From a virus, in IMG/VR virus record IMGVR_UViG_3300046796_000243, positions 1-64,000 of that record: a stretch of 64,000 bases of DNA; one strand, given 5' to 3'. The stretch's first letter is position 1; each line of letters begins with the position of its first letter. The notes beneath the pieces are model-generated. The model ran no database searches. It saw nothing but the letters and a program-made list of their open reading frames with translations, and was not told where the DNA came from. Made by a program: the position numbers and the translations under genes. Of the stretch, positions 11,902-40,024 are shown piece by piece.

Positions 11902-11920
11902 CTTAAGATTTCCTTAGTAA
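11902..11920 (+). promoter_or_regulatory. Phage promoter-like motif before the portal unit
   Basis: CTTAAGATTTCCTTAGTAA, 22 bases before the portal ATG. It matches the motifs at 18979, 22086 and 40006 at the CTTAA and TTCCTTA blocks. It occupies the 40-base divergent gap with small terminase. Confidence 0.65.
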
Positions 11921-11941
11921 ATTGCAGCTAACCATATTTTC

Positions 11942-14260
11942 ATGGCACTTGCACCCATAGGCGGACAGAACAACGTGTTGTCGGTGGTCCCGCCGGCGGC
12001 GCTCGAAGCGCAGTTGCGCGCACAAGCGGAGGCCAGGTCTGCCGCCGCGGCTCCCGCACCGCAGCCGATGCCGGAGCTGGCCGGTTACATCCGCGCCCAG
12101 TTCGAGATCATGCGCAACCACCGCAACACCGCCTCTGGCTGGTCCGGCAGATTGATCGAAGCGTTACGGGTTTTCAATGGGCAGTATTCGCCGGACAAGA
12201 TGCGCGAGGTCGCCAAGTTCGGTGGCAGCCAGATCTACGCGCGCCTCACCGCCCAGAAGTGTCGGGCCGCATCGTCTCTCCTGAGAGACGTCTATCTTGG
12301 TGCCGATCGGCCCTGGGCGGTCAAGCCGCCGGCGGACCCGGACGTGCCCGACGAGATCATGGCCAAGATCGACGCCCTCATGAAGCATGAGGCGCAGATG
12401 GTGATGCAGACCACCGGCCAGCCGGCGCCGGAGGATGCGCAGGCGAAGCGGAAGCTGGCGCTGCTGGAGTCGGCGCAGGACGCTGCCAAGAAGAAGGCGG
12501 CGCAGCAGGCCAAGGTCAGCGAGAACCGGATCGAGGAGCTGCTACGCGAGGGAATGTTTTACCACGCCCTTGCTGAGTTCATCGTAGATCTCCCGATCTT
12601 CCCGTTCGCCTGCCTCAAGGGTCCGTCGGTCAAGATTGTTCCAGACGTTATTTGGCCGCCGGGGGGCGGGCAGCCGACGGTCCAGCAGCTGCCGAAGATG
12701 GTCTGGGCACGCATATCGCCATTCGACATCTGGTGGACCCCCGGTGTCGCCGACATAGCCAATGCCAATGTAATCGAGAAGTCCCGGCTGACCCGCGCGG
12801 AGCTGAACGACCTCCTGGATCTCCCCGGCTTTAATCAGGACGAGGTACGGGCCGTTCTCGAAGAGTATGGTCGCGGTGGGCTGTACGACAATTGGGATAC
12901 GACGGACGCCGAACGCGCGGTGCTGGAAAGTCGCGAAAACCCCGCTTGGAATCGCAGCGGCTTGATCAGCCAGATGGAATTTCATGGCAACGTACAGGGG
13001 AACGTCCTGCAGGAATACGGAATGCCGGGAGTCTCTGATCCACTGCGGGACTATCATATCGATGCCTACGTGATTGGATCCCACGTCATCAAGGCAAACC
13101 TATCCCCGTCTCCCCGCGCGCGACATAATTACTTTGTTACTTCCTTTGAAAAAGTTCCGGGCACGCCGATCGGCAACGGCTTGACCGACATGATCTCCGA
13201 CATCCAGGACGTCGCCAATGCCACGCTCCGATCCCTCGTCAACAACATATCTATATCTTCTGGCCCACAGGTCGTGGTCAACGACAACCGATGTCGTGCC
13301 GAAGAGAACACCGACGAGCTGTTCCCCTGGAAGCGATGGCACGTCACTGACGACCCCGTTGGCAACAACTCCAAGCCGCCGGTCGAGTTCTTCCAGCCGC
13401 AATCCAACGCCAATGATCTACTCACGGTTTTTAAAGCATTTGTGGATCTGAGCGACGACGTCTCCGCTATTCCCAAATATATCGGAGGACAGGCAAGTGG
13501 CGGCGCGGGCCGGACCGCGTCCGGCCTCGCCATGCTGATGGGCAACGCTTCCAAGATCCTGCAGACCGTGGCCGCCAACATCGATCGTGACGTGTTCGAG
13601 GTGGCGTTGATGCAGCTGGCCGACCTGGTACTGTTGTCGGATACGACAGGGATCCTGTCCGGCGAGGAGGACATCTATGTTCAGGGGGTTAACGTCGCGG
13701 TACAGCGTGAGACCCAGCGCCAGAGGCAGCTTGAATTCCTGCAGCACACCGCCAATCCAATGGATATGGACATCATCGGCATCGCTGGTCGCGGAGCGGT
13801 TCTTCGATCTGTTAGTCAGACCATCGGGCTGGACGGCGACAAGGTGGTTCCGTCGGACGAGGCACTGCAGAAAAAGCAGGAAGCCAAGGAAAAGAACAAG
13901 CAGCAGCAGGATATCAGCGAGCAGGTCGACAAGGGTATCCAGGAAGGCGTCGAGCAGGGCGTTCGCAAGATCACCAGCGAGTTGACGTCAGGCTTCCTGG
14001 CCTCGCGTGCGCAGCTGCCGGAGGATCCCGGCATGGAGGGCCAGGAGGGTGGCATGCCCGGCCAGGCCCAGCCCGGCACCGGCGGGCCGCCTGGCATGGG
14101 TGGCCCGCCTGGTGGCGACCAGCAGATGCGCAACATGCAAGGCAACCAGCCGTCGCGCATGAGTAACCAGTTGACCCAGCCGCAGGATGTGGTGGGTAAT
14201 CAACCGAAGCCGCCCGGTCCCGGTGGGCGTCCAAGGCCGATCGTCGGTGGACCGGGCTAA
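11942..14260 (+). CDS. Portal protein (772 aa)
   Basis: Large podovirus-type portal, the dodecameric DNA gate at the capsid vertex and scaffold for connectors. The size, first late-gene position and features such as FGGSQIYARLTAQKCRAA (N-terminal helices), the ISPFDIWWTPG wing region and the SGGAGRTASGLAMLMGNA segment, typical of portal cores, support this. The C-terminus (from about 640) is helical, then a Gly/Pro/Gln-rich tail likely disordered. It starts at the ATG after the promoter-like motif. Identification is from pattern, not a search. Confidence 0.88.
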   Translation: MALAPIGGQNNVLSVVPPAALEAQLRAQAEARSAAAAPAPQPMPELAGYIRAQFEIMRNHRNTASGWSGRLIEALRVFNGQYSPDKMREVAKFGGSQIYARLTAQKCRAASSLLRDVYLGADRPWAVKPPADPDVPDEIMAKIDALMKHEAQMVMQTTGQPAPEDAQAKRKLALLESAQDAAKKKAAQQAKVSENRIEELLREGMFYHALAEFIVDLPIFPFACLKGPSVKIVPDVIWPPGGGQPTVQQLPKMVWARISPFDIWWTPGVADIANANVIEKSRLTRAELNDLLDLPGFNQDEVRAVLEEYGRGGLYDNWDTTDAERAVLESRENPAWNRSGLISQMEFHGNVQGNVLQEYGMPGVSDPLRDYHIDAYVIGSHVIKANLSPSPRARHNYFVTSFEKVPGTPIGNGLTDMISDIQDVANATLRSLVNNISISSGPQVVVNDNRCRAEENTDELFPWKRWHVTDDPVGNNSKPPVEFFQPQSNANDLLTVFKAFVDLSDDVSAIPKYIGGQASGGAGRTASGLAMLMGNASKILQTVAANIDRDVFEVALMQLADLVLLSDTTGILSGEEDIYVQGVNVAVQRETQRQRQLEFLQHTANPMDMDIIGIAGRGAVLRSVSQTIGLDGDKVVPSDEALQKKQEAKEKNKQQQDISEQVDKGIQEGVEQGVRKITSELTSGFLASRAQLPEDPGMEGQEGGMPGQAQPGTGGPPGMGGPPGGDQQMRNMQGNQPSRMSNQLTQPQDVVGNQPKPPGPGGRPRPIVGGPG

Positions 14261-14274
14261 CAGGAGACTGAGCT

Positions 14275-14421
14275 ATGGCTACTTTTAGTGTTCGTTCCCG
14301 CACCCTGACCGCGATTGCCACCACGTCCGTGACTGCCTTGACGGCGGAAGCGGCGATTGCCCAGGTGGTGGCGACGGGTGCCTCTGCCGGCTACGAGATC
14401 CAGGTTCTGAGCTGCGTCTGA
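14275..14421 (+). CDS. Small protein after portal (48 aa)
   Basis: MATFSVRSRTLTAIATTSVT, Ala/Thr-rich, ending EIQVLSCV. CAGGAG lies nine bases before the ATG and the gene fits the 14-base gap after portal. Possibly a small structural or decoration peptide; function unknown. Confidence 0.55.
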   Translation: MATFSVRSRTLTAIATTSVTALTAEAAIAQVVATGASAGYEIQVLSCV

Positions 14422-14427
14422 TCTCAC

Positions 14428-16407
14428 ATGAAGCTGGTGTGGAACGCCATCGTCAAGAACGAGGCGGCGATCATCGAACGCTGCGTCAACTCGCTGTTGC
14501 CGCACGTCGATGGCGCTGTCATCGTCGATACCGGATCGACCGACGGCACGCCTGACAAGATCATGGAGTTGTTTGTCGCGGCGGGCAAACCGGTCGAGTT
14601 TCACTATGCCAGCTTCGTCAACTTCGAACAGGCACGCAACGAGGCGCTGAAGCGTGCGCGCGAGAGCCAGAACGTCCCGTGGGACTACCTGCTGCTGGCC
14701 GACGCCGACATGGAGTTTAGGGTTCATCGCCCGGACTGGTTCAACGGCGGCAAGGAGCTGGCCTATGATCTCCGACAACGAGGCGGATCGCTTGGCTATT
14801 ACAATCGCCGACTTCTCAGCCGCGCTGCTACGGGTTGGTATGTTGGCGTCACTCACGAATATCTTGACGTGCCAGCGACTCGCTTTCTCGATGGCGCTGA
14901 GTTTATCGACCACGCCGACGGCGCCAACCGCCCCGACAAGCTCAAGCGTGATATTGCCCTTCTCGAAACCGCCCTCGCAACTGAAACTCGACCTGGTCTG
15001 ATCGAGCGGTATCACTTCTATCTGGCGGGGTCGTATTACGACCTGGGCCAGTTTGAGAAGGCCGCGGATCACTACCACATCAGGACTACGCTTGGCGGGT
15101 TCGCGGAAGAACAGTGGTACGCCAAGATACGTTATGCGCTGTGCCTCAAGAACCAGGACAAGCCCGCCCAATTTGTTTGGAATATGCTGCAGGCCTATCG
15201 CATGCGCCCGCACCGGGCGGAATCGCTGTACGAGCTGGCCAACTACTTTCGTGTGAAGGGCGATAACGCCAGTTCCCTGTTATTTTCAACGCCTGGCATG
15301 GCGCTGCCGCTACCGGCGCAGGAGCTGCTGTTCGTCAACGAGTGGATCTACAAGCACGGCCTTCGCGAAGAGTTCGCGATCTGCGCCTACTACGACCCCA
15401 GGCAGCGCAAGAAGGGTGCCGACGTGTGCGACGATCTGGTTCTGCAGGGCAGCGGGCAGGCGCGCGGCAACCAGTATTGGTACCTTGAGCCGCTGGTGAA
15501 CCACGTCCCCAGCTTCCAGCCGATACGAAGTGATTTTGACCCGCCCGAAGGGTGGGTGGCGATGAACCCGTCGATCATCAACGATGGCGGGGCGCTTACG
15601 ATGTTGGTGCGGACGGTGAACTACACCATCACGCCAGAGGGGCGATATGAAATACGTGGCACCACCGGTACTGCCAACAGTACTAATCCTATCAATACTC
15701 GCAATCATCTTGTTTATCTGGACGATGAGCTGAAGGTCACGGACACGCGCGAACTGCACATGCCGCTGGACTGGCCGGCACCGAAGTACGATCTGGTGAT
15801 CGGGTTCGAGGATTCGCGGCTGTTCAAGCATAACGGCAAGATGTGGACCGTTTCCACGGTGCGCGAGCTGAACGAGCCAGGATTGTGCCAGCAGGTGGTG
15901 GCACCGCTGAACCTCAATGGTTACGGTGACTGGACCGTGTTCGAGCAGCACTCAGACACTCACGAAAAGAACTGGATGCCGTGGGTGTTGGACGGCGAGA
16001 TCCAGTTCGTCCATCGCCTTGGATCCATGATCAAGATGAGCGGCGGGCACGGCTTCTACCGCGATCCCAAGATCGACCCCAGCCGGATCAGCGGCGGCTC
16101 CCAGGTCATCAAGGCAGAGGGCATCAACATCGCCCTGGTGCATGAGGCCAACTTTATTCCGGGCCGGCCGCACAACCGGTTCTACCAGCATCGCTTCGTC
16201 ACTTTCGCCGACGATGGCGGGATGCTGCGGATCTCGCGGCCGTTCTACTTCCATGATCGCCAGATCGAGTTTGCTGCCGGGCTGGCCTACATCCCGGAAA
16301 AACGGCAGCTGGTCGCCAGTTACGGCATCCGCGACTGCGAGGCCTGGCTGGCGACCATGGACTTCGATGACGTCGTTGGTTTTATCGGGGGGTGGTCCAG
16401 CCCATGA
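14428..16407 (+). CDS. GT2 glycosyltransferase fused to TPR-like and GH130-like beta-propeller domains (659 aa)
   Basis: Residues 1-200 are a family 2 glycosyltransferase: WNAIVKNEA, VDTGSTDGT (33-41) and the metal-binding DAD at 92-94. Residues 200-330 read like TPR helices (YHFYLAGSYYDLGQFEKAADHY). Residues 340-659 resemble a five-bladed propeller of the GH130/phosphorylase type (GFEDSRLF at 459-466, EKNWMPW at 513-519, SYGIRDCEAW at 631-640). It likely builds or remodels a glycan in the infected cell. It lies between portal and an HtrL-like transferase, in a virion-assembly operon. Propeller activity is not assured. Confidence 0.82.
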   Translation: MKLVWNAIVKNEAAIIERCVNSLLPHVDGAVIVDTGSTDGTPDKIMELFVAAGKPVEFHYASFVNFEQARNEALKRARESQNVPWDYLLLADADMEFRVHRPDWFNGGKELAYDLRQRGGSLGYYNRRLLSRAATGWYVGVTHEYLDVPATRFLDGAEFIDHADGANRPDKLKRDIALLETALATETRPGLIERYHFYLAGSYYDLGQFEKAADHYHIRTTLGGFAEEQWYAKIRYALCLKNQDKPAQFVWNMLQAYRMRPHRAESLYELANYFRVKGDNASSLLFSTPGMALPLPAQELLFVNEWIYKHGLREEFAICAYYDPRQRKKGADVCDDLVLQGSGQARGNQYWYLEPLVNHVPSFQPIRSDFDPPEGWVAMNPSIINDGGALTMLVRTVNYTITPEGRYEIRGTTGTANSTNPINTRNHLVYLDDELKVTDTRELHMPLDWPAPKYDLVIGFEDSRLFKHNGKMWTVSTVRELNEPGLCQQVVAPLNLNGYGDWTVFEQHSDTHEKNWMPWVLDGEIQFVHRLGSMIKMSGGHGFYRDPKIDPSRISGGSQVIKAEGINIALVHEANFIPGRPHNRFYQHRFVTFADDGGMLRISRPFYFHDRQIEFAAGLAYIPEKRQLVASYGIRDCEAWLATMDFDDVVGFIGGWSSP

Positions 16408-17087
16408 TCACCGCGGTCACAGGCTACGTTCACATCCCGGACCATCCGCGTTCGGGGAACGAGTATTGTGACCTGGGACACAAGCTGTCGGCGTGCGACA
16501 TCAACCTGATGTGTACCAACCAGGAGGTCGAAGAGTGCTGGATGTTCGAGTTCTTGCAGCGGCGGGGCAAGAAGTTCACTTATTCGGCGGCGGACAACCC
16601 GAAGAAGAACTCGATCTCCTACCACATCGTGCAGGCTCAGAAGTCGCATTGGCTGGCGTCGGCGGCGCGATCGATGCCGGAGGCCGATCCCCTGGTCTGG
16701 ATTGATTTCGGGATCTTCCACGTTCCTGGGGTTACCCGCCCGATCATCGAATCCTTCATGAAGCGCGCGCAAGGCGAGCAGGCAATCACGATTCCCGGCT
16801 GCTGGGAAAAGGATTACGTCTACAATGACGCGCAGCCGTGCTGGCGGTTCTGCGGCGGGGTGATGGTGGTGCCGCGCGAGCACGTCTTCAAGTTCGACAT
16901 GAACATGAAGGAAGAGTACCTCACCTGGATGGAAGAGAAGAACAACCTGTCCTGGGAGGTCAACACTCTCGCCAGGCTGGAGCGGCGGGTCGAGGGCGCG
17001 CCGATCTGGTGGTACAAGGCCAATCACGACGCATCGCTGTTCACCAACTACCGGACGACGGAGCACGCCGATGGCACGCAGAGCTAA
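16404..17087 (+). CDS. HtrL/YibB-like glycosyltransferase (227 aa)
   Basis: The VWIDFGIFH block (98-106), CWRFCGGVMVVPRE (146-159) and a WEVNTLARLE acid-containing helix (184-193) match the order in the HtrL/YibB family, proteins with a GT-A-like fold linked to surface polysaccharides (from memory). The ATG overlaps the stop of the GT2 fusion, so the two are co-translated. Probable partner in the same glycan pathway; the acceptor is unknown. Confidence 0.7.
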   Translation: MITAVTGYVHIPDHPRSGNEYCDLGHKLSACDINLMCTNQEVEECWMFEFLQRRGKKFTYSAADNPKKNSISYHIVQAQKSHWLASAARSMPEADPLVWIDFGIFHVPGVTRPIIESFMKRAQGEQAITIPGCWEKDYVYNDAQPCWRFCGGVMVVPREHVFKFDMNMKEEYLTWMEEKNNLSWEVNTLARLERRVEGAPIWWYKANHDASLFTNYRTTEHADGTQS

Positions 17088-17880
17088 GGCTACCCAGAAA
17101 CTGCTCGACCAGGTCAATGCGGCGTGCCCGTCTCGCAACAAGGGCAGCGACGGCTGGATTGGTGACGCCGCGCACGCCGCGAGCAAGTCGGACCACAACC
17201 CCAATAGCGCCGGCGTGGTGCAGGCGCAGGACATCACCCATGACCCTGCTAGTGGATTTGACAGCCACAAGTTCGCGGAGTTCCTGCGCACTCACAACGA
17301 CAAGCGCATCAAGTACGTCATTTCAAATCGAAAGATCTTCTCTGGTCCGGCCGGACCGCAGCCTTGGGTATGGCGATCTTATTCTGGCAAAAATCCTCAT
17401 GACCAGCACGTCCATGTGTCGGTGGCTGATAGTGCCTCGCTTTACGACAGCACTGCCGCCTGGGAGATCCCATTTACAACTGGGTTGCCTGACACTTCCG
17501 CTCCCGTGATCACGCTGCCGGTGCTGAAAAAAGGCGCCAAGGGGTTCTATGTTGCGATGATGCAGACGCTGCTTGGCTTCACCGGCAGGGAGGTCGACGG
17601 CGATTTCGGTCCCGGTACCGAGAATTCGCTGAAGCAGTACCAGCGTATCCAGAAGCTGGACGCCGACGGCATCTGCGGCGTCTACAGCTGGCGCGAGCTG
17701 CTGCGGCCGTGGGCCAAGGAAACCGGGCTGCTGCCGGCCGATCCGAAGGCCAGGCTGACCGAGATGGCGCTGGTGGCGCAGAAGACCGGGTCGACGGCGT
17801 CGACCGACGAGCTGGTCACTGCCTTCGCCGCGGTGTTCGAAGACATCCTGCCGCCGGGGTTTGTGCTGAAGGAGGGTTAG
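17071..17880 (+). CDS. Endolysin: M15-like peptidase plus peptidoglycan-binding domain (269 aa)
   Basis: Cell-wall hydrolase. The N-terminal domain has SDHNPNSAGVVQAQDITHD (40-58) and HDQHVHVS (110-117), giving the His/Asp/His zinc ligands of D-Ala-D-Ala carboxypeptidase-like (M15) lysins. Residues about 150-215 are a PG_binding_1 repeat (VDGDFGPGTENSLKQYQR). No signal peptide is visible, so export would need a holin. GGAG is upstream of the ATG, and small membrane proteins follow. Confidence 0.9.
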   Translation: MARRAKATQKLLDQVNAACPSRNKGSDGWIGDAAHAASKSDHNPNSAGVVQAQDITHDPASGFDSHKFAEFLRTHNDKRIKYVISNRKIFSGPAGPQPWVWRSYSGKNPHDQHVHVSVADSASLYDSTAAWEIPFTTGLPDTSAPVITLPVLKKGAKGFYVAMMQTLLGFTGREVDGDFGPGTENSLKQYQRIQKLDADGICGVYSWRELLRPWAKETGLLPADPKARLTEMALVAQKTGSTASTDELVTAFAAVFEDILPPGFVLKEG

Positions 17881-17882
17881 CC

Positions 17883-18152
17883 GTGTCTGAACTCAAGGGA
17901 TGGTTCAAGGAGAATCAGGCTCTGGTGATCGGACTTGTCGCGCAGGCGATCGTTGCCGGTATCTACATGGTCAATCTGGAAGCGCGGGTGTCGACGCTGG
18001 AAGAGCGTGGCTCAAGGCACCTTGAGGGCATCAACAACAGACTGACGGTGACGGAGAAGGAAACCGAATCCAATGTAAAGCGGATCGAGCGGATCGTGGA
18101 TATCATGACGAAAGACCTGCACATCGCGCCTGCGGACCTGAAAGTTAAATGA
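17883..18152 (+). CDS. Membrane-anchored coiled-coil lysis protein candidate (89 aa)
   Basis: GTG start with AAGGAGGG six bases upstream, directly after the endolysin stop. Residues 14-31 (LVIGLVAQAIVAGIYMVN) form one membrane span, followed by a heptad-rich coiled coil (LEARVSTLEERG..., then KETESNVKRIERIVDI). The layout suits an inner-membrane spanin-like or holin-accessory protein. No lipoprotein spanin partner was found. Confidence 0.7.
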   Translation: MSELKGWFKENQALVIGLVAQAIVAGIYMVNLEARVSTLEERGSRHLEGINNRLTVTEKETESNVKRIERIVDIMTKDLHIAPADLKVK

Positions 18153-18164
18153 GGGGGATAGGCC

Positions 18165-18380: not shown

Positions 18381-18381
18381 A

Positions 18382-18600: not shown

Positions 18601-18662
18601 CGGCATCGAGGTGATGCCGCCGCTGGATACGACCCAACCCAAGATCTGCAAGGGATGCTGAC

Positions 18663-18983
18663 ATGGCGATTATGAAGGCTGCTAGAATCGGGGTGCGGAT
18701 CATGTCCGACGGCACCACGTCGACATTCACGGTCAAGCTGGCGACCGATGGCGATCCGTACTGGGTTGGAGAGGCCAGTGACGCTGGCATTCGTGGTACC
18801 CAGGTCGAGAATTGGTTCTCCCAGCCGAATGCGGCCAACGCTCCCAAGGCGGTGAGGATGGTCGACGGAGGCGGGGCTACTTCGGTCAGTCTTGCCGTCC
18901 CGACTTCGGTTCTGACGGTGAACATTGTTCCTGCACCGAAGGACGTGATCCAGATGATCTTCGTCGAGCTGCTGTTCGCTTAA
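18663..18983 (+). CDS. Small protein, possible virion component (106 aa)
   Basis: Beta-rich sequence (ARIGVRIMSDGTTSTFTVKL; TSVSLAVPTSVLTVNIVP) with no membrane span. It ends at the promoter-like motif, whose CTTAA contains its stop codon. Last gene of the portal unit. Function unknown. Confidence 0.65.
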   Translation: MAIMKAARIGVRIMSDGTTSTFTVKLATDGDPYWVGEASDAGIRGTQVENWFSQPNAANAPKAVRMVDGGGATSVSLAVPTSVLTVNIVPAPKDVIQMIFVELLFA

Positions 18984-18997
18984 CATTTCCTTAAGAA
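18979..18997 (+). promoter_or_regulatory. Phage promoter-like motif before the scaffold/capsid unit
   Basis: CTTAACATTTCCTTAAGAA, 42 bases before the next ATG. The match to the copy at 22086-22104 is 17 of 19 bases. Confidence 0.65.
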
Positions 18998-19038
18998 TTA
19001 CGAACTAGGCTTCCTGTAGATTCACAGGAGGATCCCCT

Positions 19039-19266
19039 ATGGCTTCTAATCCCAAGGCCAGAGAAAATTCACACAACGTGACGTTCGCCGAAGGCGGCGA
19101 CGGCCACATGTTCGGTCAGCAGGCGGCTGGCCCCGACAAGCCCGGCAACACCGGCAAGGACACCTCCGGCGCGCCTGGTCCGAAGTATGCGAGCGGCGGC
19201 TCCGGCAAGATGTTCGGCTTCTCGCCGTCCCAGGCGGCGAAGTCGGGACAGACGGGGGCACGCTAG
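19039..19266 (+). CDS. Small Gly-rich protein with two MFG motifs (75 aa)
   Basis: Low-complexity, Gly/Ala/Lys-rich. GGDGHMFGQQAAG and GGSGKMFGFSPSQAAKSG are repeats of one motif. CAGGAGG precedes the ATG. Small proteins of this kind are often found beside scaffold genes in podoviruses; the role is unknown. Confidence 0.7.
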   Translation: MASNPKARENSHNVTFAEGGDGHMFGQQAAGPDKPGNTGKDTSGAPGPKYASGGSGKMFGFSPSQAAKSGQTGAR

Positions 19267-21073: not shown

Positions 21074-22090
21074 ATGCCTATTGGTACTTCTGCCTATCCC
21101 GTCGCAACGTCGGTATCATCGACGCCGCTTACGCCTACGGGTTCTACGCCCAATACCCTCGTCAATACCGGTTTTATCCCGGAAATCTGGTCCGCCAAGC
21201 TGGTCGAGAAGTTCTATGCCTCGACGGTGCTGCAGGCGATCAGCAACACCGACTATGAGGGCGAAATCCAGAACATGGGCGACCGTGTCAAGATTCGCAC
21301 CAAGCCCACCATCACCATCAAGGACTACCAGGCCGACGGCCTGCTTGGCCTCGATCGTCCGTCCGGCGGCAACATCGAGCTGTACATCAATATTGGCAAG
21401 TACTTCAGCCTGATCCTCGACGACGTCATGGAGATCCAGTCGGATCTCAATCTCCTGAGCATGTGGTCCGACGATGCGGCCCAGCAGCTCAAGATCGTTG
21501 TCGACCGCGACGTTCTCGGTGGCATCACCGTCCAGGCGCATGCCAAGAACCGCGGTACGACCGCTGGCGTGATCTCCAGCGTGTCCGGCACCGCGATCAA
21601 CCTGGGTGTCAAGTCGACGCCGCTGACGGTGGCGAAGGCGCCCACTGCCGGCCAGGTCGACATTCTCGATGTGATGCTTCGTCTCGGCCAGGCGCTGGAC
21701 GAGCAGAATATCCCGGAGGAAGGTCGCTGGCTTGTGATGTCCGCGGCTGCGGGCCGTTACCTCAAGCAGAGCGAGCTGCGCCAGGCCTACCTGTCCGGCG
21801 ATCCCGTCTCGATGCTGCGCAACGGCCGTCTCGGCATGGTGGATCGTTTCACGATCTACATCTCCAACCTGCTGCCCGGCTCGACAACGGATGCGACCAA
21901 CTTCGCAGCCAGCGAGCAGCCGGTGTTCGCGGGTCATGCCCATGCGCTGACGTTCGCTTCGCAGATCAGCAAGGTCGAAACCATGCGCTCCGAACTGACC
22001 TTTGGTCAGATTCTGCGCGGGCTGCAGGTCTACGGTTATCAGATCCTCGACCCGACGGCGTTGGCCCAGGCCCAGATCATCCTGGCTTAA
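21074..22090 (+). CDS. Major capsid protein (338 aa)
   Basis: Placed between scaffold and connectors, with the length and composition of an HK97-fold coat protein. Visible elements are an N-terminal arm (FIPEIWSAKLVEKFY), an E-loop-like beta stretch (GDRVKIRTKPTITIKDYQ), and a late SNLLPGSTTDATNFAA segment. Follows AAGGGG and the ATG at 21074. The stop codon lies within the next promoter-like motif. Forms the icosahedral shell. Confidence 0.87.
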   Translation: MPIGTSAYPVATSVSSTPLTPTGSTPNTLVNTGFIPEIWSAKLVEKFYASTVLQAISNTDYEGEIQNMGDRVKIRTKPTITIKDYQADGLLGLDRPSGGNIELYINIGKYFSLILDDVMEIQSDLNLLSMWSDDAAQQLKIVVDRDVLGGITVQAHAKNRGTTAGVISSVSGTAINLGVKSTPLTVAKAPTAGQVDILDVMLRLGQALDEQNIPEEGRWLVMSAAAGRYLKQSELRQAYLSGDPVSMLRNGRLGMVDRFTIYISNLLPGSTTDATNFAASEQPVFAGHAHALTFASQISKVETMRSELTFGQILRGLQVYGYQILDPTALAQAQIILA

Positions 22091-22104
22091 CTATTCCTTA
22101 AGAA
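22086..22104 (+). promoter_or_regulatory. Phage promoter-like motif before the connector/tail unit
   Basis: CTTAACTATTCCTTAAGAA, the consensus copy, containing the capsid stop codon and 39 bases before the next ATG. Confidence 0.65.
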
Positions 22105-22142
22105 ACGACCCCTAAGCTCGCTCCAACGAGCGAGGTTAGGGG

Positions 22143-22592
22143 ATGGCCACTTCTGCCAGTTACCACGGCAATTTCAGCGACATGGACCAGCCCACGCTCA
22201 ACACCGTGGCTGACTACATGGCTGACGCCAGGGTGCAGCTGCAGGATATCATTCCAGACTTTCGCTACAACGAGGCCTCCATGCTGACGGCATTGAACGT
22301 GGCGCTGCTGGAGGCGCGTCGGATCAAGCCGGAGCTGTTCGTCTACAACTGGGAAGTCGGCGGCCAGGTTCAGTCGTTCACAGAGGTTGATGACACCTAT
22401 GTCGACATCGAACCGCAATTTCGGCTTGCGATCCTGCACGGGCTTATTGGCCACGCGCTCGAACGCGATCAGGAAGATGTACAGGACACACGCGCGACGG
22501 CGTTTCTGGCGCTGTTTACGCAAGGGCTGGTTGGCAAGGCACTTGGTGCTGTGGTCGGTGGTTCAGCCCCGAAGGGCAAGGGTGGTGGCTGA
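22143..22592 (+). CDS. Head-tail connector / adaptor protein (149 aa)
   Basis: ARVQLQDIIPDFRYNEASML and LNVALLEARRIKPELF are typical of phage head-tail adaptor proteins (DUF6682-like, from memory). Located right after the capsid gene, it probably docks under the portal and starts tail assembly. The Gly/Lys-rich tail is probably flexible. Confidence 0.78.
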   Translation: MATSASYHGNFSDMDQPTLNTVADYMADARVQLQDIIPDFRYNEASMLTALNVALLEARRIKPELFVYNWEVGGQVQSFTEVDDTYVDIEPQFRLAILHGLIGHALERDQEDVQDTRATAFLALFTQGLVGKALGAVVGGSAPKGKGGG

Positions 22593-29720: not shown

Positions 29721-29929
29721 TGGCTTACAATTTTCCAGATTCTCCGAGCTACAATACCACCTTTGGCGCCTACAAATGGGATGGCGAGAAGTGGATCCTG
29801 GCTGCTGGTGGCATCGGCATGCCGAACCCGCCATCGTCACCGAGAACAGCAATCATAAGTCCTGCATGGACAGGGTTGGGGGCGTCGATCTTCTACGACA
29901 GCGGAGCTGGCGTGACGCGGATCATTTAG
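29720..29929 (+). CDS. Short fibre stub with WDGEKW anchor (69 aa)
   Basis: MAYNFPDSPSYNTTFG then KWDGEKWILAAGG copies the N-terminal motif of the preceding gene, followed by only about 40 residues. It looks like an anchor domain without its distal fibre: a remnant after recombination or a small capping subunit. It shares one base with the upstream stop. Confidence 0.65.
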   Translation: MAYNFPDSPSYNTTFGAYKWDGEKWILAAGGIGMPNPPSSPRTAIISPAWTGLGASIFYDSGAGVTRII

Positions 29930-32203: not shown

Positions 32204-33774
32204 TGGCCGATATCCCCGCCGCCCCAATCATGGCTCGACCCGTTGTGGTCGTCTCCGGCCCCGCCGGTCCGACTGGCGTGGGTGGTATTGGTCCGACCGG
32301 TCCCGCCGGGGGACCGACCGGAGCTGCCGGGCCGACGGGAGCGCAGGGTGATGTCGGTAATTACGGGCCAGTAGGCGATACCGGTTATACCGGGCCGCGG
32401 GGGCTGACCGGACCGATCGGGCCGCAGGGGGTGCTGGGTCCGTCCGGGCCAACCGGCTCTCCCGGACAGGCATCGGCGACCGGTGCCACAGGCCCTTTAG
32501 GATTGACGGGGCCGTCGGGTCCGACCGGCGCGCCGGGTTTGGCGTCGGCGACCGGCTCTACCGGGCCAACTGGGGGCGTCGGCGGGGCTGGCCCTCAAGG
32601 ACCAACCGGTAACACCGGGTTCACGGGTCCGCAGGGGCTGCTTGGGCCGTCGGGGCCGACTGGCGTGCAGGGGCTGATCGGCCTGACCGGTCCCTCCGGG
32701 CCGACTGGTGCAATCGGGCCACAGGGCGTGACCGGGGGCACCGGACCCACGGGGGTGACCGGCTTCGGCGCCACCGGGCCGTCCGGGGTGACCGGGATGA
32801 CTGGTCCGCAGGGCCAGGTTGGCAATATCGGCAACGCGGGTCCGACCGGGCCGACCGGGTTGACGGTCATCGGCCCCCAGGGACCGCAGGGAATTGGCGG
32901 CTTCACCGGCTACACCGGACCGACCGGGTTCACGGGTTACACCGGCGCTGCCGGCACCGCGGTGACCACCGGGGCGACGGGACCGACCGGGCCAGGCGTT
33001 GGCGCGACCGGGCCGACCGGGCCGATCGGACCACTGGGCACCGGTCCTACCGGCATCGCCGGTTTCAACGGTGTCGACGGGCCGATCGGGGCAACCGGGG
33101 CAACCGGACGAACTGGGCCATCCGGGGCAACCGGGGCACAGGGCATAACCGGTCCGACCGGCGCCAAGGGTGATATCGGCCCGCTGGGGATCGGTCCAAC
33201 CGGTCACACCGGTCCGAGCGTGACCGGGCCGACCGGCAATACCGGGATCACCGGTCCTGTCGGGCTGACCGGGCCGACAGGTTCGAGCCTGACCGGGCCG
33301 ACGGGGCCAGTAGGTTCGGCATCCACCGGAGCGACCGGGCCGACCGGGATCAGCGGCAACAAGGATGCCTTCCGCGCCAAGATGGCGTCGAACCAGACCA
33401 ACGTGGTCGACAGCGTCAACACCAAGCTGGTGTTCGGCACCAAGGTGTTCGACATCAACAACAAGTATGATTCGACCAACTCACGTTGGACCCCGGCAGC
33501 GGGTGCCGTGATCCTGGGCGCGGCGATCAGCATCCAGGCTACCCTGGCCAAGAACACGCTGCCGCAGGTGCTGATCTACAAGAATGGTACCGTGATCGCA
33601 CAGAACGGTTCAACCACGGTCGCCGGCACCACCAACGCGCAAGTCGGCGTCGTCGACCAGGCCAGTGGCACGGATTATTACGAGTGTTACGCCAACGTGA
33701 ACACGTCCGGCAGCGGCAACGCCACCATCCTGGCGGTCAACTTTGTGACGATGTTCTGGGGAGCGGTGTTCTGA
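32203..33774 (+). CDS. Collagen-like tail fibre 3 with C1q-like head (523 aa)
   Basis: N-terminus [15 protein letters not shown], then the longest collagen tract (about 22-385) of GPTG/GATG/GPQG triplets, and a C-terminal domain ([46 protein letters not shown]) with the look of a C1q/TNF-type jelly roll. Collagen plus C1q is a trimeric receptor-binding architecture. The gene starts on the last base of fibre 2. Confidence 0.85.
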
Positions 33775-33899
33775 TGGAAGATGAAATCTGGGTGCCCGAG
33801 GAAAACCGGACTATTGTCATCGTCGGAGACGATTTCGAGATCGAGATACCCGGCGAGGTATGTGTGATCGAGGTACAGGAAGATGGCACTGCTAGGTAG
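33774..33899 (+). CDS. Acidic peptide after fibre 3 (41 aa)
   Basis: [20 protein letters not shown]..., acidic and beta-like, Glu/Val/Ile-rich. The ATG shares a base with the fibre stop, and the next gene starts within its last 17 bases. Possibly a fibre cap or chaperone peptide; function unknown. Confidence 0.55.
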   Translation: MEDEIWVPEENRTIVIVGDDFEIEIPGEVCVIEVQEDGTAR

Positions 33900-34164
33900 C
33901 AAACAACATACCGAAGGCGACAGCAGGCGCTGGACGGTCAAGTACGAGAAATGGTTGGCGAATGGCGCCAATATCGACCAGATCGACGTGCAATCCGATT
34001 CGGTCACCTGTACCGTCGGTACCGCCACCATCCTGGGGCCGGACGTGTATTTTCTGTTGACGGGTGGTGAGCTGAACGAACGTCTGACGGTCACGTTAGT
34101 CATGGCCGACAACCTGGGTAACATCAAACGCGACACGATCGCCTTCACGGTTGTGCCGGCATAG
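33883..34164 (+). CDS. Small beta structural protein (93 aa)
   Basis: The sequence SVTCTVGTATILGPDVYFLL and RLTVTLVMADNLGNIKRDT suggests an Ig-like beta-sandwich, of a kind seen next to phage fibres. It starts MALLGSKQHTEGDSRRW, with AGGAAG before the ATG. Role unknown. Confidence 0.68.
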   Translation: MALLGSKQHTEGDSRRWTVKYEKWLANGANIDQIDVQSDSVTCTVGTATILGPDVYFLLTGGELNERLTVTLVMADNLGNIKRDTIAFTVVPA

Positions 34165-34173
34165 GAGGAGAGC

Positions 34174-34674
34174 ATGAAAGAACGCGCCGAACTGGAATCG
34201 ATGACCAAGGACGAGCTGGTTGCCTACGCCGACGAGCAGGGGATCGAGGTCAGTGCCCACTGGGTCAAGGACGACATCATCAAGGAAATCGTGAAGGGCC
34301 AGAAGGCCGCGGCCAAGGCTGAAGCCAAGGCCGAGCCGGACAAGGCCGATTCAACCAAGCAGCACGAAGCCAACATCGCCAAGTTCGAGGCTGAAACCAC
34401 CGCAGCCATGGAGAACCAGGAGATCGCCAATTTCCACGGTCTGCCGAAGGAAGGCGAGACGCGCGAGCAGCTGCTGGCCCGCATTCGCAAGATGCGTGAG
34501 GCCCCGCCGCCCGAGCCTGAAGCCAAAGTCCATCGTTCCGAGGCGGCGCAGAAGGAATTCGACGCCGAACTGGCGGCGGGCAAGGCCGCGGTGGCCAAGG
34601 CCGAGGAAGCACAGAAGAAATATCAGGAGCACCTGGCAAAGGAAGCCGAGGGGGAAAAAAATCCGGCTGGGTAG
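34174..34674 (+). CDS. SAP/HeH-like domain and long Lys/Ala/Glu helix protein (166 aa)
   Basis: MTKDELVAYADEQGIEVSAH and DDIIKEIVKGQ (10-42) resemble the two-helix SAP/HeH/Rho-N fold. The rest is an Ala/Lys/Glu-rich helix, probably a coiled coil or extended rod (QKKYQEHLAKEAEGEK). Probably virion-associated; GGAGGAG is upstream. Confidence 0.72.
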   Translation: MKERAELESMTKDELVAYADEQGIEVSAHWVKDDIIKEIVKGQKAAAKAEAKAEPDKADSTKQHEANIAKFEAETTAAMENQEIANFHGLPKEGETREQLLARIRKMREAPPPEPEAKVHRSEAAQKEFDAELAAGKAAVAKAEEAQKKYQEHLAKEAEGEKNPAG

Positions 34675-34782
34675 GCCGGTGACTGAGGGTTGGATGGAGC
34701 CTGTGTACCACCCCAACCCCAGCCAGGATCAGGAATTCCCCACGACCGGTTCTACACTGGGCAAGAACAGGACGGGCTATCG

Positions 34783-37071
34783 ATGACTGCTTATAAAATC
34801 GATAAATTCGGGGGGATGTTGCCTGCCTGGCACACGAACCTGCTTCCCGAAGGCCAGGCGGATTATTCCGTCAACGCCTATTTGTTCTCCGGCGCGCTGG
34901 TTGGCTGGCGGCAACCGAAGCTGCTGAAGGCGCTGCAGGATCCGACCGCCAAATATGTCTACCGGGTGCCGAACCGCGACTCCAGCGACAACGGCATCAC
35001 GGCAACCGACTCGCACTGGATGGAATTCCCTGACCCGGACACCACGGTGATGCACTCGCCCGTGGTTCAGGATCAGTGGCAACGCTACTACTGGGCCTCC
35101 TCCTCTGATGTACCAAAGTACAATACCTACGACCGCATCAGGGCGGACCAGCATCCGTGGGTGCTGGGCGTGCCGGCGTCGGGCTGCACGCCCGGTGTCA
35201 CCGTTACCGGTGGCGGCGACACCATGCAGATCGGCAATCCGACGGTGCCGGCGGACGGTGGCGGCGGCTACAGCGATTACCATCCCGGCAACGGACTGTT
35301 CCTGATTCCGATCGTGCCCGACGGTTCGATGCTGGTCACTTCCGTCGGCTTCATGCCGGCGTCGACGGACGCGGCGATGCACTTCCAGGCGGTGGTCTAC
35401 ACCGACCTCAACGGGGCACCGCATACGCTGATCGAAACAGGCGAGGAAGTTACCGGCATCACCGAAGGTTCTTCCGCCACCAGCCTGTTCACCAACGGGC
35501 CTTCGGTAATAGCCAACAAGACGTACTGGATCGGCATCGCGCACGACAACCCGATGAGCGTGATCGTCGCCGACGCACGACTCACCAACGGCGTCATGGG
35601 CAGCAACACCTACTCCAACGATCCGCCAGATCCGGTATCGGCGACCGGGCCGCATCCGGGCTGGCAGATGTGGACCGACATGCTGGGTGCTTCGGTGTTT
35701 GAGGCAAGAGGCTACGTCTACACCTGGGTCACCGAGTATGGCGAGGAGGGTCCGCCGTCGGAGCCGGTGCTGGTCAACGGCTGGTCGAACGCGACCTGGA
35801 CCGTCGAGTGCTTCCAGCCGCTGCCGGAGAACCTTGGCGCGGACTGGCTCGATCCGGTCGACAGCGTGGTCAAACCGGCCAAGCGCAACATCACCACCAC
35901 AAGGCTCTATCGCACCATTTCCAACCAGGCCGGGCAGGGCACCTACTTCTTTGTCGCTGAATTCCCGGTTAGTCAGGCGACCTATGTCGATACCAGGCCG
36001 GATGATGAAGTGGCGATCGAAGCCCAGCTCACGTCCCTGTACTGGTTCGCGCCCCCGGAAGACCTGCAGGCGATCGTGCCGTTCCCGAATGGCATCGCGG
36101 TCGGCTTCCGCAAGAACGAAATCTGGTTCAGCGAGGCCTATCGGCCGCATGCCTGGCCGCCGGGTTACGTCATCACGACCGAATTTCCGATCGTTGGTAT
36201 TGGCGTTTGCGGCCAGGCGATCGTGGCCTGCACGCAAGGAACGCCCTATGTCGCCAACGGCGTCAATCCGGCCTCGATGGCGTTGACCAAGATCAATCTG
36301 GCCGAACCCTGTCTCCATAGGGGATCCATCGTTTCGACGGATACGACCGTACTTTACGTTTCGCAGAACGGCTTGATCCAGGTCAGCCAGTCCGGCGCCG
36401 GCGACAACATGACCGAAGGCTGGATCAGTCGCGAACGCTGGCAGAAGCTGACGCCGCATCTGCGCGTGCGCGCCATCAAGCTGACGTCGGCCTACTTTGC
36501 CTTCGGCGGCGATCCGATTCGCGATGGTTTCACAGTAGAATTATCGGCCGAGGACAAGACCTCCTTCACCATCTGGCCACAGGCGGGCGGGCATCGGCTG
36601 GGCTTCAACAAGCTGACGTCGCCGAACGAGTTCGACATCGACAATGTCGAGGTCGACCCGTGGACCGGCACCGGCCTACTCGTTCAAAATGGCGGTATTT
36701 GGTATTACGACTTCACCGACCAGTCGCCGACCATCGTGCCGTATCGCTGGCGCTCGAAGACCTACCAGCAGCTGGCGCGCAAGAACTTCGAAGCGATCCG
36801 GGTCTGGTTCACGGTGCCGGACACCACGCCGCCGCAAATAACAAGGGATGTCTCCAACCCACAACTGGAGCTGGGCGACAACCAGTATGGCATTGTGCGG
36901 GTGTTCGTCGACGGCGAAATCTGGACCACGCGCGAGATCCGCTCTTCCGGCGAGCTGCTGCGCATCCTTAGCGGCATCAAGGGCGAGCAGTGGCAGTTCG
37001 AGATCGAGGGCCGGGTCAACGTCTCCAATCTGCAGGTCGCAACTTCAGTCAAGGAGCTGGCACAGGTATGA
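34783..37071 (+). CDS. Tail nozzle-like protein (762 aa)
   Basis: Large beta protein. Its opening (YKIDKFGGMLPAWHTNLLPE, then SVNAYLFSGALVGWRQPK) resembles the start of podovirus tail nozzle proteins of the T7 gp12 class, with propeller-like repeats (FPNGIAVGFRKNEIWFSEAY, GLIQVSQSGAGDN). The ATG at 34783 has AGGACGGG upstream; a TTG at 34690 would add an out-of-character N-terminus. It probably closes the short tail tube and carries fibres. Confidence 0.72.
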   Translation: MTAYKIDKFGGMLPAWHTNLLPEGQADYSVNAYLFSGALVGWRQPKLLKALQDPTAKYVYRVPNRDSSDNGITATDSHWMEFPDPDTTVMHSPVVQDQWQRYYWASSSDVPKYNTYDRIRADQHPWVLGVPASGCTPGVTVTGGGDTMQIGNPTVPADGGGGYSDYHPGNGLFLIPIVPDGSMLVTSVGFMPASTDAAMHFQAVVYTDLNGAPHTLIETGEEVTGITEGSSATSLFTNGPSVIANKTYWIGIAHDNPMSVIVADARLTNGVMGSNTYSNDPPDPVSATGPHPGWQMWTDMLGASVFEARGYVYTWVTEYGEEGPPSEPVLVNGWSNATWTVECFQPLPENLGADWLDPVDSVVKPAKRNITTTRLYRTISNQAGQGTYFFVAEFPVSQATYVDTRPDDEVAIEAQLTSLYWFAPPEDLQAIVPFPNGIAVGFRKNEIWFSEAYRPHAWPPGYVITTEFPIVGIGVCGQAIVACTQGTPYVANGVNPASMALTKINLAEPCLHRGSIVSTDTTVLYVSQNGLIQVSQSGAGDNMTEGWISRERWQKLTPHLRVRAIKLTSAYFAFGGDPIRDGFTVELSAEDKTSFTIWPQAGGHRLGFNKLTSPNEFDIDNVEVDPWTGTGLLVQNGGIWYYDFTDQSPTIVPYRWRSKTYQQLARKNFEAIRVWFTVPDTTPPQITRDVSNPQLELGDNQYGIVRVFVDGEIWTTREIRSSGELLRILSGIKGEQWQFEIEGRVNVSNLQVATSVKELAQV

Positions 37072-37451
37072 GCAACGCACCCTTTTGTCCGGTTAGCCGT
37101 AATGGTCCGCTGCAGTCGTCAAAGACGGCGCAACCGCCGGCGGCTACTATTCCGACGATTCCGCCGGCGCACGATCTGCGTTCGGTGATCAACGCCATCA
37201 ACCAGATGAACAGCGTGATCCAGCACATCACGATCGGCGTGCCGGTCATCAACAATATCGGCACCCCCCCGGTGCAGCAGCCGACCTACGGCTATAAGCG
37301 GGTGACCTGGAAAGAGGTGTCGCGCAACTACCAGGAGCAGGAAGTAATCAACCCGGATAACAAGGACCAGAAGATCAAGATCAAGACACTTTCACAGGTC
37401 AACTGGATCGAATCGACTTCCGGGCACCAGCTCACTTACCAGAGTACATAG
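37068..37451 (+). CDS. Tandem-paralogue tail protein A (127 aa)
   Basis: MSNAPFCPVSRNGPLQ followed by IPTIPPAHDLRSVINAINQM is the same plan as the next two genes: a Cys-Pro-x-Ser-Arg N-terminus, then a helix of the DLxSxIxAxN type. A beta C-terminus contains WKEVSRNYQEQE. The ATG overlaps the nozzle stop. Likely a tail adaptor or fibre-base component. Confidence 0.72.
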   Translation: MSNAPFCPVSRNGPLQSSKTAQPPAATIPTIPPAHDLRSVINAINQMNSVIQHITIGVPVINNIGTPPVQQPTYGYKRVTWKEVSRNYQEQEVINPDNKDQKIKIKTLSQVNWIESTSGHQLTYQST

Positions 37452-37453
37452 CC

Positions 37454-37954
37454 ATGCCGACCTATTTTGGCCCGATCGCACCGTACTGCCCGATCAGCCG
37501 GGACTCGCCGCTTGGGCCGGAAACCTGGGCGCCGTCGATCCGCACCGTGATCCCGCGCGCCTACGACCTGGCTTCGGCACTGCTTGCGGTCAACATCGCG
37601 CGCTCTATCGTTACCCAGCTGGTGATCGACAAGGTCATCAACAACGTCCACACCCCGCCGCCGCCGAAGACGGTCAAGAAGACGCGAACCTCGCGCTGGA
37701 AGCAGGGCACACCGGTCAAGCGCAAATACAAATATTACCTGAAGGACGAGAACGGCGAAAAAGACAAGGATAGCTGGGTGATGACGGAGCGGATCGAAAA
37801 CCTGACCTGGACTGATCGGGCCTGGCAGACCTCGCTGAACTTCACCTATGGCGACAAGGGTGACGAGGGCGAACCGGTTGGTGGCGGTGGTGCCGCCACC
37901 GGCGGTGCGGACTTCGATACGGGTGATTTCAATACGGGTGACTTTAGTCAATGA
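37454..37954 (+). CDS. Tandem-paralogue tail protein B (166 aa)
   Basis: IAPYCPISRDSPLG and IPRAYDLASALLAVNIARSI match proteins A and C. The C-terminal half is basic (KQGTPVKRKYKYYLKDENG), then a Gly/Asp-rich tail (FDTGDFNTGDFSQ) that is disordered. Two bases after the preceding stop. Confidence 0.7.
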   Translation: MPTYFGPIAPYCPISRDSPLGPETWAPSIRTVIPRAYDLASALLAVNIARSIVTQLVIDKVINNVHTPPPPKTVKKTRTSRWKQGTPVKRKYKYYLKDENGEKDKDSWVMTERIENLTWTDRAWQTSLNFTYGDKGDEGEPVGGGGAATGGADFDTGDFNTGDFSQ

Positions 37955-38469
37955 ACGCGCCGTTTTGCCCAATCAGTCGAAACCAGCAGCCTACCGGGGG
38001 CGCGCGAACGCCTGCGGCCCTGCTGCCGACGATCCCGATCGCCACTGACCTGCCGTCGATGATCCGCGCCGTCAACATCATGCGCGATATCCTGCGCACG
38101 CTGACGACGTCGCTGACGGTCAACAACATCTGGGAACAGCAATACGGCAACACTTACATCCTGTCGCCCTATCCTGACTGGGCGCAAGTCGGTGCCGACA
38201 ACGTGACGGGGTTCGTCTACTACAAGGCCAAGAATAAGCCGCCCGATCCCGACCAGCGCGCCTACGTCCAGCGCACCAACGCGGTCGAGTTTCGCAATAC
38301 CCAGCGCGGCGAAGATCCGACGTTCTTCTGGCGGCTCAAGAAGCCGCTGGATTCCGAGTACGGCGACAGCAAAGGGGTGACGCCGTTCCAGGAAGATTTC
38401 TTCGAGCGCGTGGTCAACGTGAAGTGGGGCGACGGGCTTGCCGTGGTGTTTTACGATGGGGCTGAATGA
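37951..38469 (+). CDS. Tandem-paralogue tail protein C (172 aa)
   Basis: NAPFCPISRNQQPTGG and IPIATDLPSMIRAVNIMRDI are the third copy of the motif. The C-terminal half (FVYYKAKNKPPDPDQRAYV, RTNAVEFRNTQRGED) is a beta domain. It overlaps B by four bases and the next gene by four. Confidence 0.7.
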   Translation: MNAPFCPISRNQQPTGGARTPAALLPTIPIATDLPSMIRAVNIMRDILRTLTTSLTVNNIWEQQYGNTYILSPYPDWAQVGADNVTGFVYYKAKNKPPDPDQRAYVQRTNAVEFRNTQRGEDPTFFWRLKKPLDSEYGDSKGVTPFQEDFFERVVNVKWGDGLAVVFYDGAE

Positions 38470-40010
38470 TGAGTTATCTGCTGTTGCCCAAAGGACTTGA
38501 TGTCGAGGCAACTGCTGGTGCCAAGGGTCCGATCGGTCCGACGGGGCCGATCGATACGGATGCCGGCGAAACAGAAGCACCGACAGGGCCAACCGCACCG
38601 GATCCTGCTGATCCTGACGGACTCAACAAGGCGACGATCTCGCTGTTTTTTCGGATACCAAGCCGGACTTATGACTTAGGGAAGTCGATTTTACTGTGTG
38701 CCTTTGGCAAAGGGCAGCAGGAAACCCCCTTGACGCCAATCGTAGAAAATCTTCCTGGTCCCGTGACACCTGTTTTTAATTATCCTTACGGCACCCCGGT
38801 AGATCCTGGCCCACTCTGTTTTGCGACCACCGGTTTTACGGAAGGAGAAAAAAGCGATCTACCTCCATGTTCCATTGCCGTGGAATGGACTGAATTCAAT
38901 ACGGCTGTCCTGGTCTTCAATTTCCAAACCAAGGGCATCGCCACCGGAGTCGGGCTTTCTGTTTCCGACAAAACGGCTTCTGAAGTGATGTTTCCCGAGT
39001 GGCCAGCTAATCTAAATGAGCTGCTACAAACCAATGGTTCTGGCTGGATTCGGCAGGACTGGTTCTGGATCGATAAACCCAGCAGCATCGTTATTGCGAT
39101 ATATAATCACGTCGTCCGAGCTTCCGGTCTTTCGGATCTCAGCAACGACGTGCTGAAAGCCAAGCCGGAATTCTATCATGTCAAAACCATACACCCCATC
39201 ACGCCAGATCGCTGGCATCATCTGTTGCTGTCGTTCGATCTGTCGCCTGAAATTGTTACCCGTGGTCCACCGCTTGAAGAGGGTCGTGATGGCCCGATAG
39301 GTAGCGGCTGGGACAATGTCTGGGAGGGTACATATGGATACGCCAAGCTGTGGTACGCGATCGACGACGTCGACTATCGTGGTCGCGCCAAAGAACTAAA
39401 TGATCGCGGCGACGTGCAATATCATTTAGGCCCCTATTGCGTTGATCACGACAGTTCGCTGACAGAATTGCTGATGCTCCGCGGATTCGGAGGAGGCCCC
39501 AAGCCGATGGGCGATCCAAACGGCATCCTGACCAAGGCGGGATGGGAAGTCCCTTATCATGGTTCCTCCGCTACGACCCTTGGCAATCAGCTGCTCATGA
39601 CCCCGGTCTATAATTTTTCCAACAGCACGCTGCCGGTCAAGGATGCCGAGTTGGGGATCCCGTCCATATCGGCTTACGTCGATGAGATTCATGAGGTCGA
39701 TATGGCCGAACTGCAGTTCTTTGCCGGTGTCGCGCTGGACACCGGCAAGGAGTCCAACCGCCGCATCTTCATAACCAAGGACGGCAAGCCGGTGTACGCG
39801 GACCAGAAAGCGGATGCCAACCATCCCAACAGCGGCTCGATCGAGCGGTTGGGCAAGGAGCCGGAGATCTACCTGCACAAGACCAAGAACTGGAAAACCG
39901 GCAAGAACCTGGGCACCGCCGGTGACTTGACGCCGACCGGCAAGATCGATCGGTTCAAGCCCGAGCCGAGCCTGCATGGCGACCAGACGGCCGTCCCGCC
40001 GAACCGTTAA
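38466..40010 (+). CDS. LamG/concanavalin-like tail protein with short collagen segment (514 aa)
   Basis: The N-terminus has KGPIGPTGPID, a collagen stub. The middle is rich in beta strands (FRIPSRTYDLGKSILLCAF, HVKTIHPITPDRWHHLLLSF) with the WHHLLLSFD motif typical of LamG-like sandwich domains. The stop codon lies in the promoter-like motif at 40006. Carbohydrate recognition or fibre attachment is likely. Confidence 0.72.
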   Translation: MMSYLLLPKGLDVEATAGAKGPIGPTGPIDTDAGETEAPTGPTAPDPADPDGLNKATISLFFRIPSRTYDLGKSILLCAFGKGQQETPLTPIVENLPGPVTPVFNYPYGTPVDPGPLCFATTGFTEGEKSDLPPCSIAVEWTEFNTAVLVFNFQTKGIATGVGLSVSDKTASEVMFPEWPANLNELLQTNGSGWIRQDWFWIDKPSSIVIAIYNHVVRASGLSDLSNDVLKAKPEFYHVKTIHPITPDRWHHLLLSFDLSPEIVTRGPPLEEGRDGPIGSGWDNVWEGTYGYAKLWYAIDDVDYRGRAKELNDRGDVQYHLGPYCVDHDSSLTELLMLRGFGGGPKPMGDPNGILTKAGWEVPYHGSSATTLGNQLLMTPVYNFSNSTLPVKDAELGIPSISAYVDEIHEVDMAELQFFAGVALDTGKESNRRIFITKDGKPVYADQKADANHPNSGSIERLGKEPEIYLHKTKNWKTGKNLGTAGDLTPTGKIDRFKPEPSLHGDQTAVPPNR

Positions 40011-40024
40011 CTATTCCTTAGTAT
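40006..40024 (+). promoter_or_regulatory. Phage promoter-like motif before the ejection-protein unit
   Basis: GTTAACTATTCCTTAGTAT, containing the previous stop codon, 49 bases before the next ATG. The TTAACTATTCCTTA block is identical to the copy at 22086. Confidence 0.65.

Follow-up and report, generated by a model that had tools for sequence, protein, structure and literature searches.

What turns on the structural genes of a phage whose virion operons stand behind one repeated motif? Late transcription is often unexplained in phages without their own polymerase or sigma factor, and the question arises for the soil phage of IMG/VR virus record IMGVR_UViG_3300046796_000243, a viral contig of 68,372 bases with 61% G+C. 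The window analysed here is the stretch from position 1 to 64,000 of this record; a first-pass annotation had described in it a 19-base motif at the head of every late transcription unit. The results, all computational, indicate that the four late copies are probably activator-dependent promoters, and that a phage protein resembling CtrA, without the receiver domain, probably turns on the late operons. If this is true, transcription of the main virion operons would be explained by one small protein together with a 32-bp promoter rule, from which start sites, the absence of a leader on the portal messenger RNA (mRNA) and the related phages that follow the rule can be predicted.

CtrA-type boxes ahead of the virion operons

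The four putative promoters are as follows.

11903 to 11934, plus strand: late promoter 1 (portal); box TTAA-GATTTCC-TTAG (11903-11917), N10, then the -10-like element C-TAACCA (11929-11934)
18980 to 19011, plus strand: late promoter 2 (unit leading to scaffold/capsid); box TTAA-CATTTCC-TTAA (18980-18994), -10-like element TAGGCT (19006-19011)
22087 to 22118, plus strand: late promoter 3 (connector/tail unit); box TTAA-CTATTCC-TTAA (22087-22101), -10-like element TAAGCT (22113-22118); first ATG at 22143
40007 to 40038, plus strand: late promoter 4 (ejection-protein unit); box TTAA-CTATTCC-TTAG (40007-40021); first gene ATG at 40073

The annotated 19-mer is present exactly at 22086-22104 (0 mismatches), with 2 mismatches at 18979-18997, 4 at 40006-40024 and 5 at 11902-11920. 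The sites are real, but the copies are less alike than the description of one motif and its close variants had implied. The conserved part is TTAA-N7-TTA(A/G), common to all four copies (two exact TTAA-N7-TTAA, two TTAA-N7-TTAG), plus a -10-like TA. With their strict 7-nt spacer, the four sites qualify as CtrA-type boxes (TTAA-N7-TTAA); judged by its sequence, the motif is the box bound by CtrA, the master regulator of the cell cycle in alphaproteobacteria.

Such an arrangement is not expected by chance in this genome, in which TTAA occurs just 41 times over 68 kb. On the plus strand, four copies of TTAA-Nk-TTAR have k = 7, and just two have another spacing in the range 0-20 (one copy with k = 1, one with k = 20). 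On both strands together, six copies of TTAA-N7-TTAR were observed, compared to a mean of 0.35 per simulated genome, and three with a downstream TA, compared to 0.013. The first-pass annotation had proposed scanning the whole genome with a position matrix. When the training set was confined to portal-upstream sites of other phages, the matrix ranked the four sites at the top (31.5, 31.0, 28.5 and 26.9 bits), with the fifth-best genome site at 9.8 and a maximum of 13.6 across 10 simulated genomes, so that the late copies at 11902, 18979, 22086 and 40006 are genuine and the only strong sites in the 68,372 bases. A fifth copy, annotated at 5634-5652, had to be given up: it ranks 316 with a negative matrix score, and on the minus strand it consists of the downstream half-box only (ACTATTCCTTAA), without the first TTAA and without a properly placed -10. 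Rfam and transfer RNA scans of the window gave no matches.

The placement of the boxes agrees with the annotation, which had counted 22-49 bases to the first ATG; the measured distances are 21-48 nt, upstream of the portal (11942), scaffold/capsid-leading (19039), connector (22143) and ejection (40073) units. At three sites the TAA stop codon of the upstream gene lies inside the first TTAA, as had been noticed (genes ending at 18983, 22090 and 40010). The boxes are single and scattered across 28 kb, and are not clustered in one gap or in a terminal repeat.

Proposed promoter layout and predicted start sites

The second element of the proposed promoter is the -10 sequence. Among 71 sites of twelve phages, TA stands at offset 11 past the second half-site in 28, and at any other offset in 7 or fewer. 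If this TA opens a -10 element, the box would lie at about -38 to -24, where a -35 element would be. The layout in which a box replaces the -35 element is shared by PhoB promoters of E. coli; in class II promoters of the PhoB/OmpR type, the pho box has two half-sites 11 bp apart and lies about 10 bp upstream of the -10 element. The phage sites resemble these promoters in half-site spacing, in the distance to the -10 element and in the replaced -35 element, whereas they differ in having TTAA instead of CTGTCA half-sites and, as proposed here, an activator without a receiver domain. In Caulobacter, the full CtrA box of activated promoters mostly begins near -35 (PMC4287350; also PMC11264516). 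In host genomes, TA at the phage -10 offset was found behind 11 CtrA boxes, compared to 7 at a control offset, and a scan for E. coli-type sigma70 promoters between 11 and 24 kb gave no matches.

The element had been annotated as a phage-specific promoter or processing site, unlike host sigma70 sites. Its role as a late-promoter element is supported; the likeness to sigma70 promoters was underrated, as a sigma70-like -10 follows the box at a fixed spacing, which makes host RNA polymerase with an activator the simpler reading. A processing site is unlikely because TTAA-N7-TTAA has the architecture of a DNA box, with 11-bp periodicity and a linked -10. In the proposed mechanism, a CtrA-type box with two TTAA half-sites 11 bp apart would replace the -35 element, the sigma70-like -10 would lie eleven nucleotides downstream, and host RNA polymerase would transcribe the late operons only with a winged-helix protein of the OmpR/CtrA type on the box.

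For the portal unit, late promoter 1 has its predicted start near 11941, which coincides with the portal ATG (11942). Of 29 related phages in a non-redundant set, 18 have their first ATG 22-25 nt past the portal box, and in 3 further ones the portal start has this distance but stands behind an earlier chance ATG. With no ribosome site and a predicted start at the ATG, a leaderless portal mRNA is predicted. The first gene behind late promoter 2 (ATG at 19039) has the ribosome site AGGAGG. In two relatives, a -10-like TA flanks the portal box on both sides (G002 at 57638-57652, G013 at 29913-29927); there the box may drive divergent promoters, for portal and for the gene on the terminase side.

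The connector unit carries an additional element.

22109 to 22142, plus strand: inverted repeat with arms 22109-22122 and 22129-22142, spanning the -10 element and the ribosome site of the connector unit

The predicted connector start (about 22125) falls in the loop of this repeat, so that the ribosome site would be masked in read-through RNA only. Folding is consistent with this arrangement, with z -5.2 for read-through RNA and z +0.8, no more than chance, for RNA from the predicted start. Poor translation of read-through RNA and good translation of promoter RNA are therefore predicted, as is known for some T4 late genes. Similar hairpins are present in three relatives.

A phage-encoded candidate reader and its relatives

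The box-bound protein would most likely be the product of the following phage gene.

6787 to 7314, plus strand: proposed late activator, 175 aa (encoded by 6787-7311); N-terminal helix-turn-helix (HTH) at about residues 12-49, C-terminal OmpR/CtrA-type winged helix at about residues 72-152

A search of the record for OmpR-type DNA-binding domains returned this gene as the one match (PF00486, Trans_reg_C; 30.4 bits against a curated cut-off of 26.2, E 4e-7). In the AlphaFold (AF2) model (pLDDT 84), a helical HTH at the N terminus is followed by a winged helix at the C terminus; a fold search with the two-domain model gave nothing below E 0.001, with a BaeR structure among the top matches. Pfam and NCBIfam scans of the protein revealed no receiver domain with a phospho-acceptor Asp, and it does not count as a CtrA orthologue. 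We infer binding to the boxes, activation, use of the host polymerase and timing: the protein would need no phosphorylation and, once accumulated, would serve as a late switch. Late transcription would in that case be freed from CtrA phosphorylation. The first-pass annotation had considered that an HTH protein of the window could be the specificity factor, and this guess is supported.

Conservation of the sites was followed in two sets of relatives. The first consists of the best 80 of 287 IMG/VR stretches encoding the portal; the second was separately chosen by the regulator, partly from the same contigs, and comprises 75 newly fetched loci, 11 of them from bacterial genomes. Portal-chosen relatives contain 36 distinct TTAA-N7-TTAA sites and at most 10 at any other spacing. 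In the regulator-chosen set, 35 sites have the N7 spacing (other spacings, 12 or fewer), and for the box together with the -10 element the numbers are 29 and at most 4. The near-complete relatives G001, G002 and G013 have sites at all four corresponding late-unit heads, and G003 at three. The regulator gene belongs to a conserved family (A2) beside the terminase; in relatives, its homologs are found on the upstream side of portal and terminase, and this synteny holds in every near-complete genome that has sites. The flanking anchors in the window are as follows.

8743 to 10761, minus strand: terminase large subunit (phrog_2, E 1e-21), the synteny anchor between regulator and portal
11942 to 14260, plus strand: portal protein, first gene of late unit 1 (phrog_332 / PF23899)

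The portal tree links gene and box to each other. With states left open wherever the flank was too short, 19 tips have both the gene and a portal box, 7 have neither, 3 have the gene only, and none has the box only. Both are absent on two separate branches: in the clade of L038, L039, L040, L061 and L065, the sister of which (L034/L060) has boxes, and in L025/L033, among phages closer to the window, where only L025 was judged for the regulator. Other genes occupy the regulator's place on the terminase side in L039 and L025, and the whole records of the L038/L039 clade contain no TTAA-N7-TTAA at all. In the L035-L065 clade, without box and regulator, another conserved sequence is located upstream of portal (CCCTATAACATTTCCCG...GTAGCAT).

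Distant homologs of the regulator match CtrA-like proteins in Rhodobacter, Roseobacter and Paracoccus phages; a comparison of the window's protein (P0001) with annotated phages found no match. Further homologs occur in bacterial genomes of Pleomorphomonas and Enterovirga, where they adjoin phage-type replication genes. All four such genomes examined possess true CtrA, and the homologs in these bacteria have recognition helices nearly like that of CtrA, in Pleomorphomonas KIIDVFVCKIRAKL compared to KIIDVFICKLRKKL in CtrA of the same bacterium. When a domain profile of the family was compared with two of these genomes, CtrA came top after the homologs themselves (51.1 and 49.6 bits), ahead by 15-18 bits of the next host response regulators (32.8 and 34.1 bits); among the response regulators of either host, CtrA is thus the one closest to the family. 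The recognition helices have diverged in the clade of the window (HRTIDVHMCRIRHRL). Sequence likeness makes descent from CtrA likely for the regulator family; the window's own protein, which is more diverged, may share this descent.

Nearest to the window among isolate phages, by portal, are Rhizobium phage RHph_TM27A and its kin (58%); box sites were not found in RHph_TM27A. Bacterial genomes were searched for prophages with a related portal, and none was found. The host of the phage is presumably one of the Alphaproteobacteria, probably of the Hyphomicrobiales.

Rival readers and known systems

Several observations count against the proposed switch. Late promoter 4 has the weakest -10 (CACCTT), with no TA at the usual position. 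Three distant phages (L067, L070 and L078) have the gene and no clear portal box, and in the close phage L177 the regulator is present and the portal box absent, so that the link between gene and box is strong, not absolute. With 23 identical residues in 63 positions, the domain of the window's own protein is only moderately like that of CtrA, and in NCBIfam the protein matches PhoB and TctD best. Paracoccus phage R3, Roseobacter phage RDJL3 and Rhodobacter phage RcPescado have very CtrA-like domains and no TTAA-N7-TTAA in the stretches checked (three genomes, two of them in part), which means that the domain alone is no predictor of sites. Moreover, many contigs among the relatives are fragments.

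The main rival is direct use of host CtrA: phosphorylated CtrA would read the boxes, the structural genes would be on only at the CtrA-active stage of the cell cycle (a direct 'lytic deferment'), and the phage HTH protein would have another role. The box matches the CtrA consensus exactly, other phages of alphaproteobacteria have promoters that CtrA binds and controls (PMC9437464), phage Jorvik depends on host ctrA for infection (PMC10589892), and the likely hosts are Alphaproteobacteria, given the nearest isolates on Rhizobium and the homologs in CtrA-bearing bacteria. This explanation nevertheless leaves the joint absence on two branches, and the lack of boxes without the gene, unaccounted for; a lytic phage with virion genes waiting on the cell cycle would be unusual, and the alphaproteobacterial host is a presumed one. 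On balance, we regard it as unlikely. A shared arrangement, which overlaps the proposal of a phage-encoded activator, is somewhat easier to accept and still only tentative. In it, the phage protein, as a CtrA mimic, would share the boxes with host CtrA, which could prime or repress the late promoters, and the phage protein could also work at host CtrA targets, e.g., flagellar genes or the origin. The same box consensus and a similar recognition helix are in its favor, while the divergence of these helices in the window's clade speaks against it.

A phage-specific RNA polymerase or sigma factor that reads the motif as its promoter is very improbable. The motif does stand at the head of late units, a placement known from T7-like and T4-like phages, but two spaced half-sites with a -10 at fixed distance suit an activator with sigma70, and no match to sigma region 4 was found in the genome. 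General family scans revealed no polymerase family among the proteins scanned; no T7-type polymerase (PF00940) or other RNA_pol family match was obtained either, although the controls of that search were also silent. Least probable of all is an RNA processing site, a terminator or chance similarity, for which the overlap of three copies with stop codons could be cited; the matrix scan and simulations, the N7 spacing peaks in two sets of relatives and the linked -10 make it hard to maintain.

The preferred explanation, a receiver-less phage activator on CtrA-type boxes, has partial precedents. CtrA boxes bound and regulated by host CtrA have been described in phages as dense clusters in one region, controlling a small number of uncharacterised genes, in the LPEG phages PhiCbK, vB_BsubS-Delta and Cp1R7A-A1, with activation shown for PhiCbK and Cp1R7A-A1 promoters (PMC9437464). 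Like the window, these phages of alphaproteobacteria have the TTAA-N7-TTAA box in intergenic promoter DNA. Unlike their many boxes in one gap or terminal repeat, single boxes are scattered here, one per virion operon, and a measure of clustering would miss them; furthermore, no phage-encoded reader of the box was described there (PMC9437464), whereas a candidate is encoded here. The use of CtrA in phages would thereby reach the structural genes themselves, beyond the small unknown genes that lie near clustered boxes.

In roseophage RDJL Phi1, a GTA-like phage, a receiver-less CtrA gene lies between the gafA and rcc01866 homologs (PMC6363796). Like the gene at 6787-7311, it encodes the CtrA DNA-binding domain without a response-regulator domain, but no target sites or role are known for it, while the protein of the window joins this domain to another HTH and is linked to matching boxes. 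In RDJL3, R3 and RcPescado, similar domains stand on a longer N-terminal part, unlike the 175-aa protein; the CtrA-type-domain proteins of Paracoccus vB_PmaS-R3, the Roseobacter RDJL phages, and Rhodobacter RcPescado and its kin are annotated as CzcR-like, HTH or CtrA. GafA is a direct activator of the structural operon of RcGTA (PMC6363796). The proposed regulator would resemble GafA as an element-encoded activator of a structural-gene promoter that employs host RNA polymerase and is tied to the CtrA network. The difference is that GafA is described as having DnaA-like and sigma-like domains, and that its promoter is not bound by CtrA. A literature search, made outside subscription papers, found no phage-encoded CtrA-like late activator with matching boxes at late operons.

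There is reasonable ground to think that a widespread group of soil phages uses a receiver-less CtrA DNA-binding domain and CtrA-type boxes as a complete late switch, and that the protein may also act on host CtrA targets. As a phage version of this domain occurs beside matching sites, phage take-over of a cell-cycle regulator becomes directly testable.

Some neighbouring genes show features of their own. Immediately 5' of the regulator gene, positions 6163-6639 of the window encode an HNH endonuclease with a NUMOD4 motif. The capsid gene ends within the third box.

21074 to 22090, plus strand: major capsid protein (phrog_267, E 1e-53); TAA stop inside the box of promoter 3

This gene is uninterrupted in the window. 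In three related phages, group I introns (Rfam RF00028, 78-83 bits) split it, namely in L115 (19365-19575), L107 (13814-14044) and L142 (2409-2629 and 3215-3441); two occur in G005, and in G012 an insert at capsid codon 39 encodes a LAGLIDADG-like protein. In the ejection unit, positions 45063-52475 of the window encode a protein of 2470 aa, the sole Pfam match of which is LPD38 (residues 2198-2355), a domain that occurs in large polyvalent proteins.

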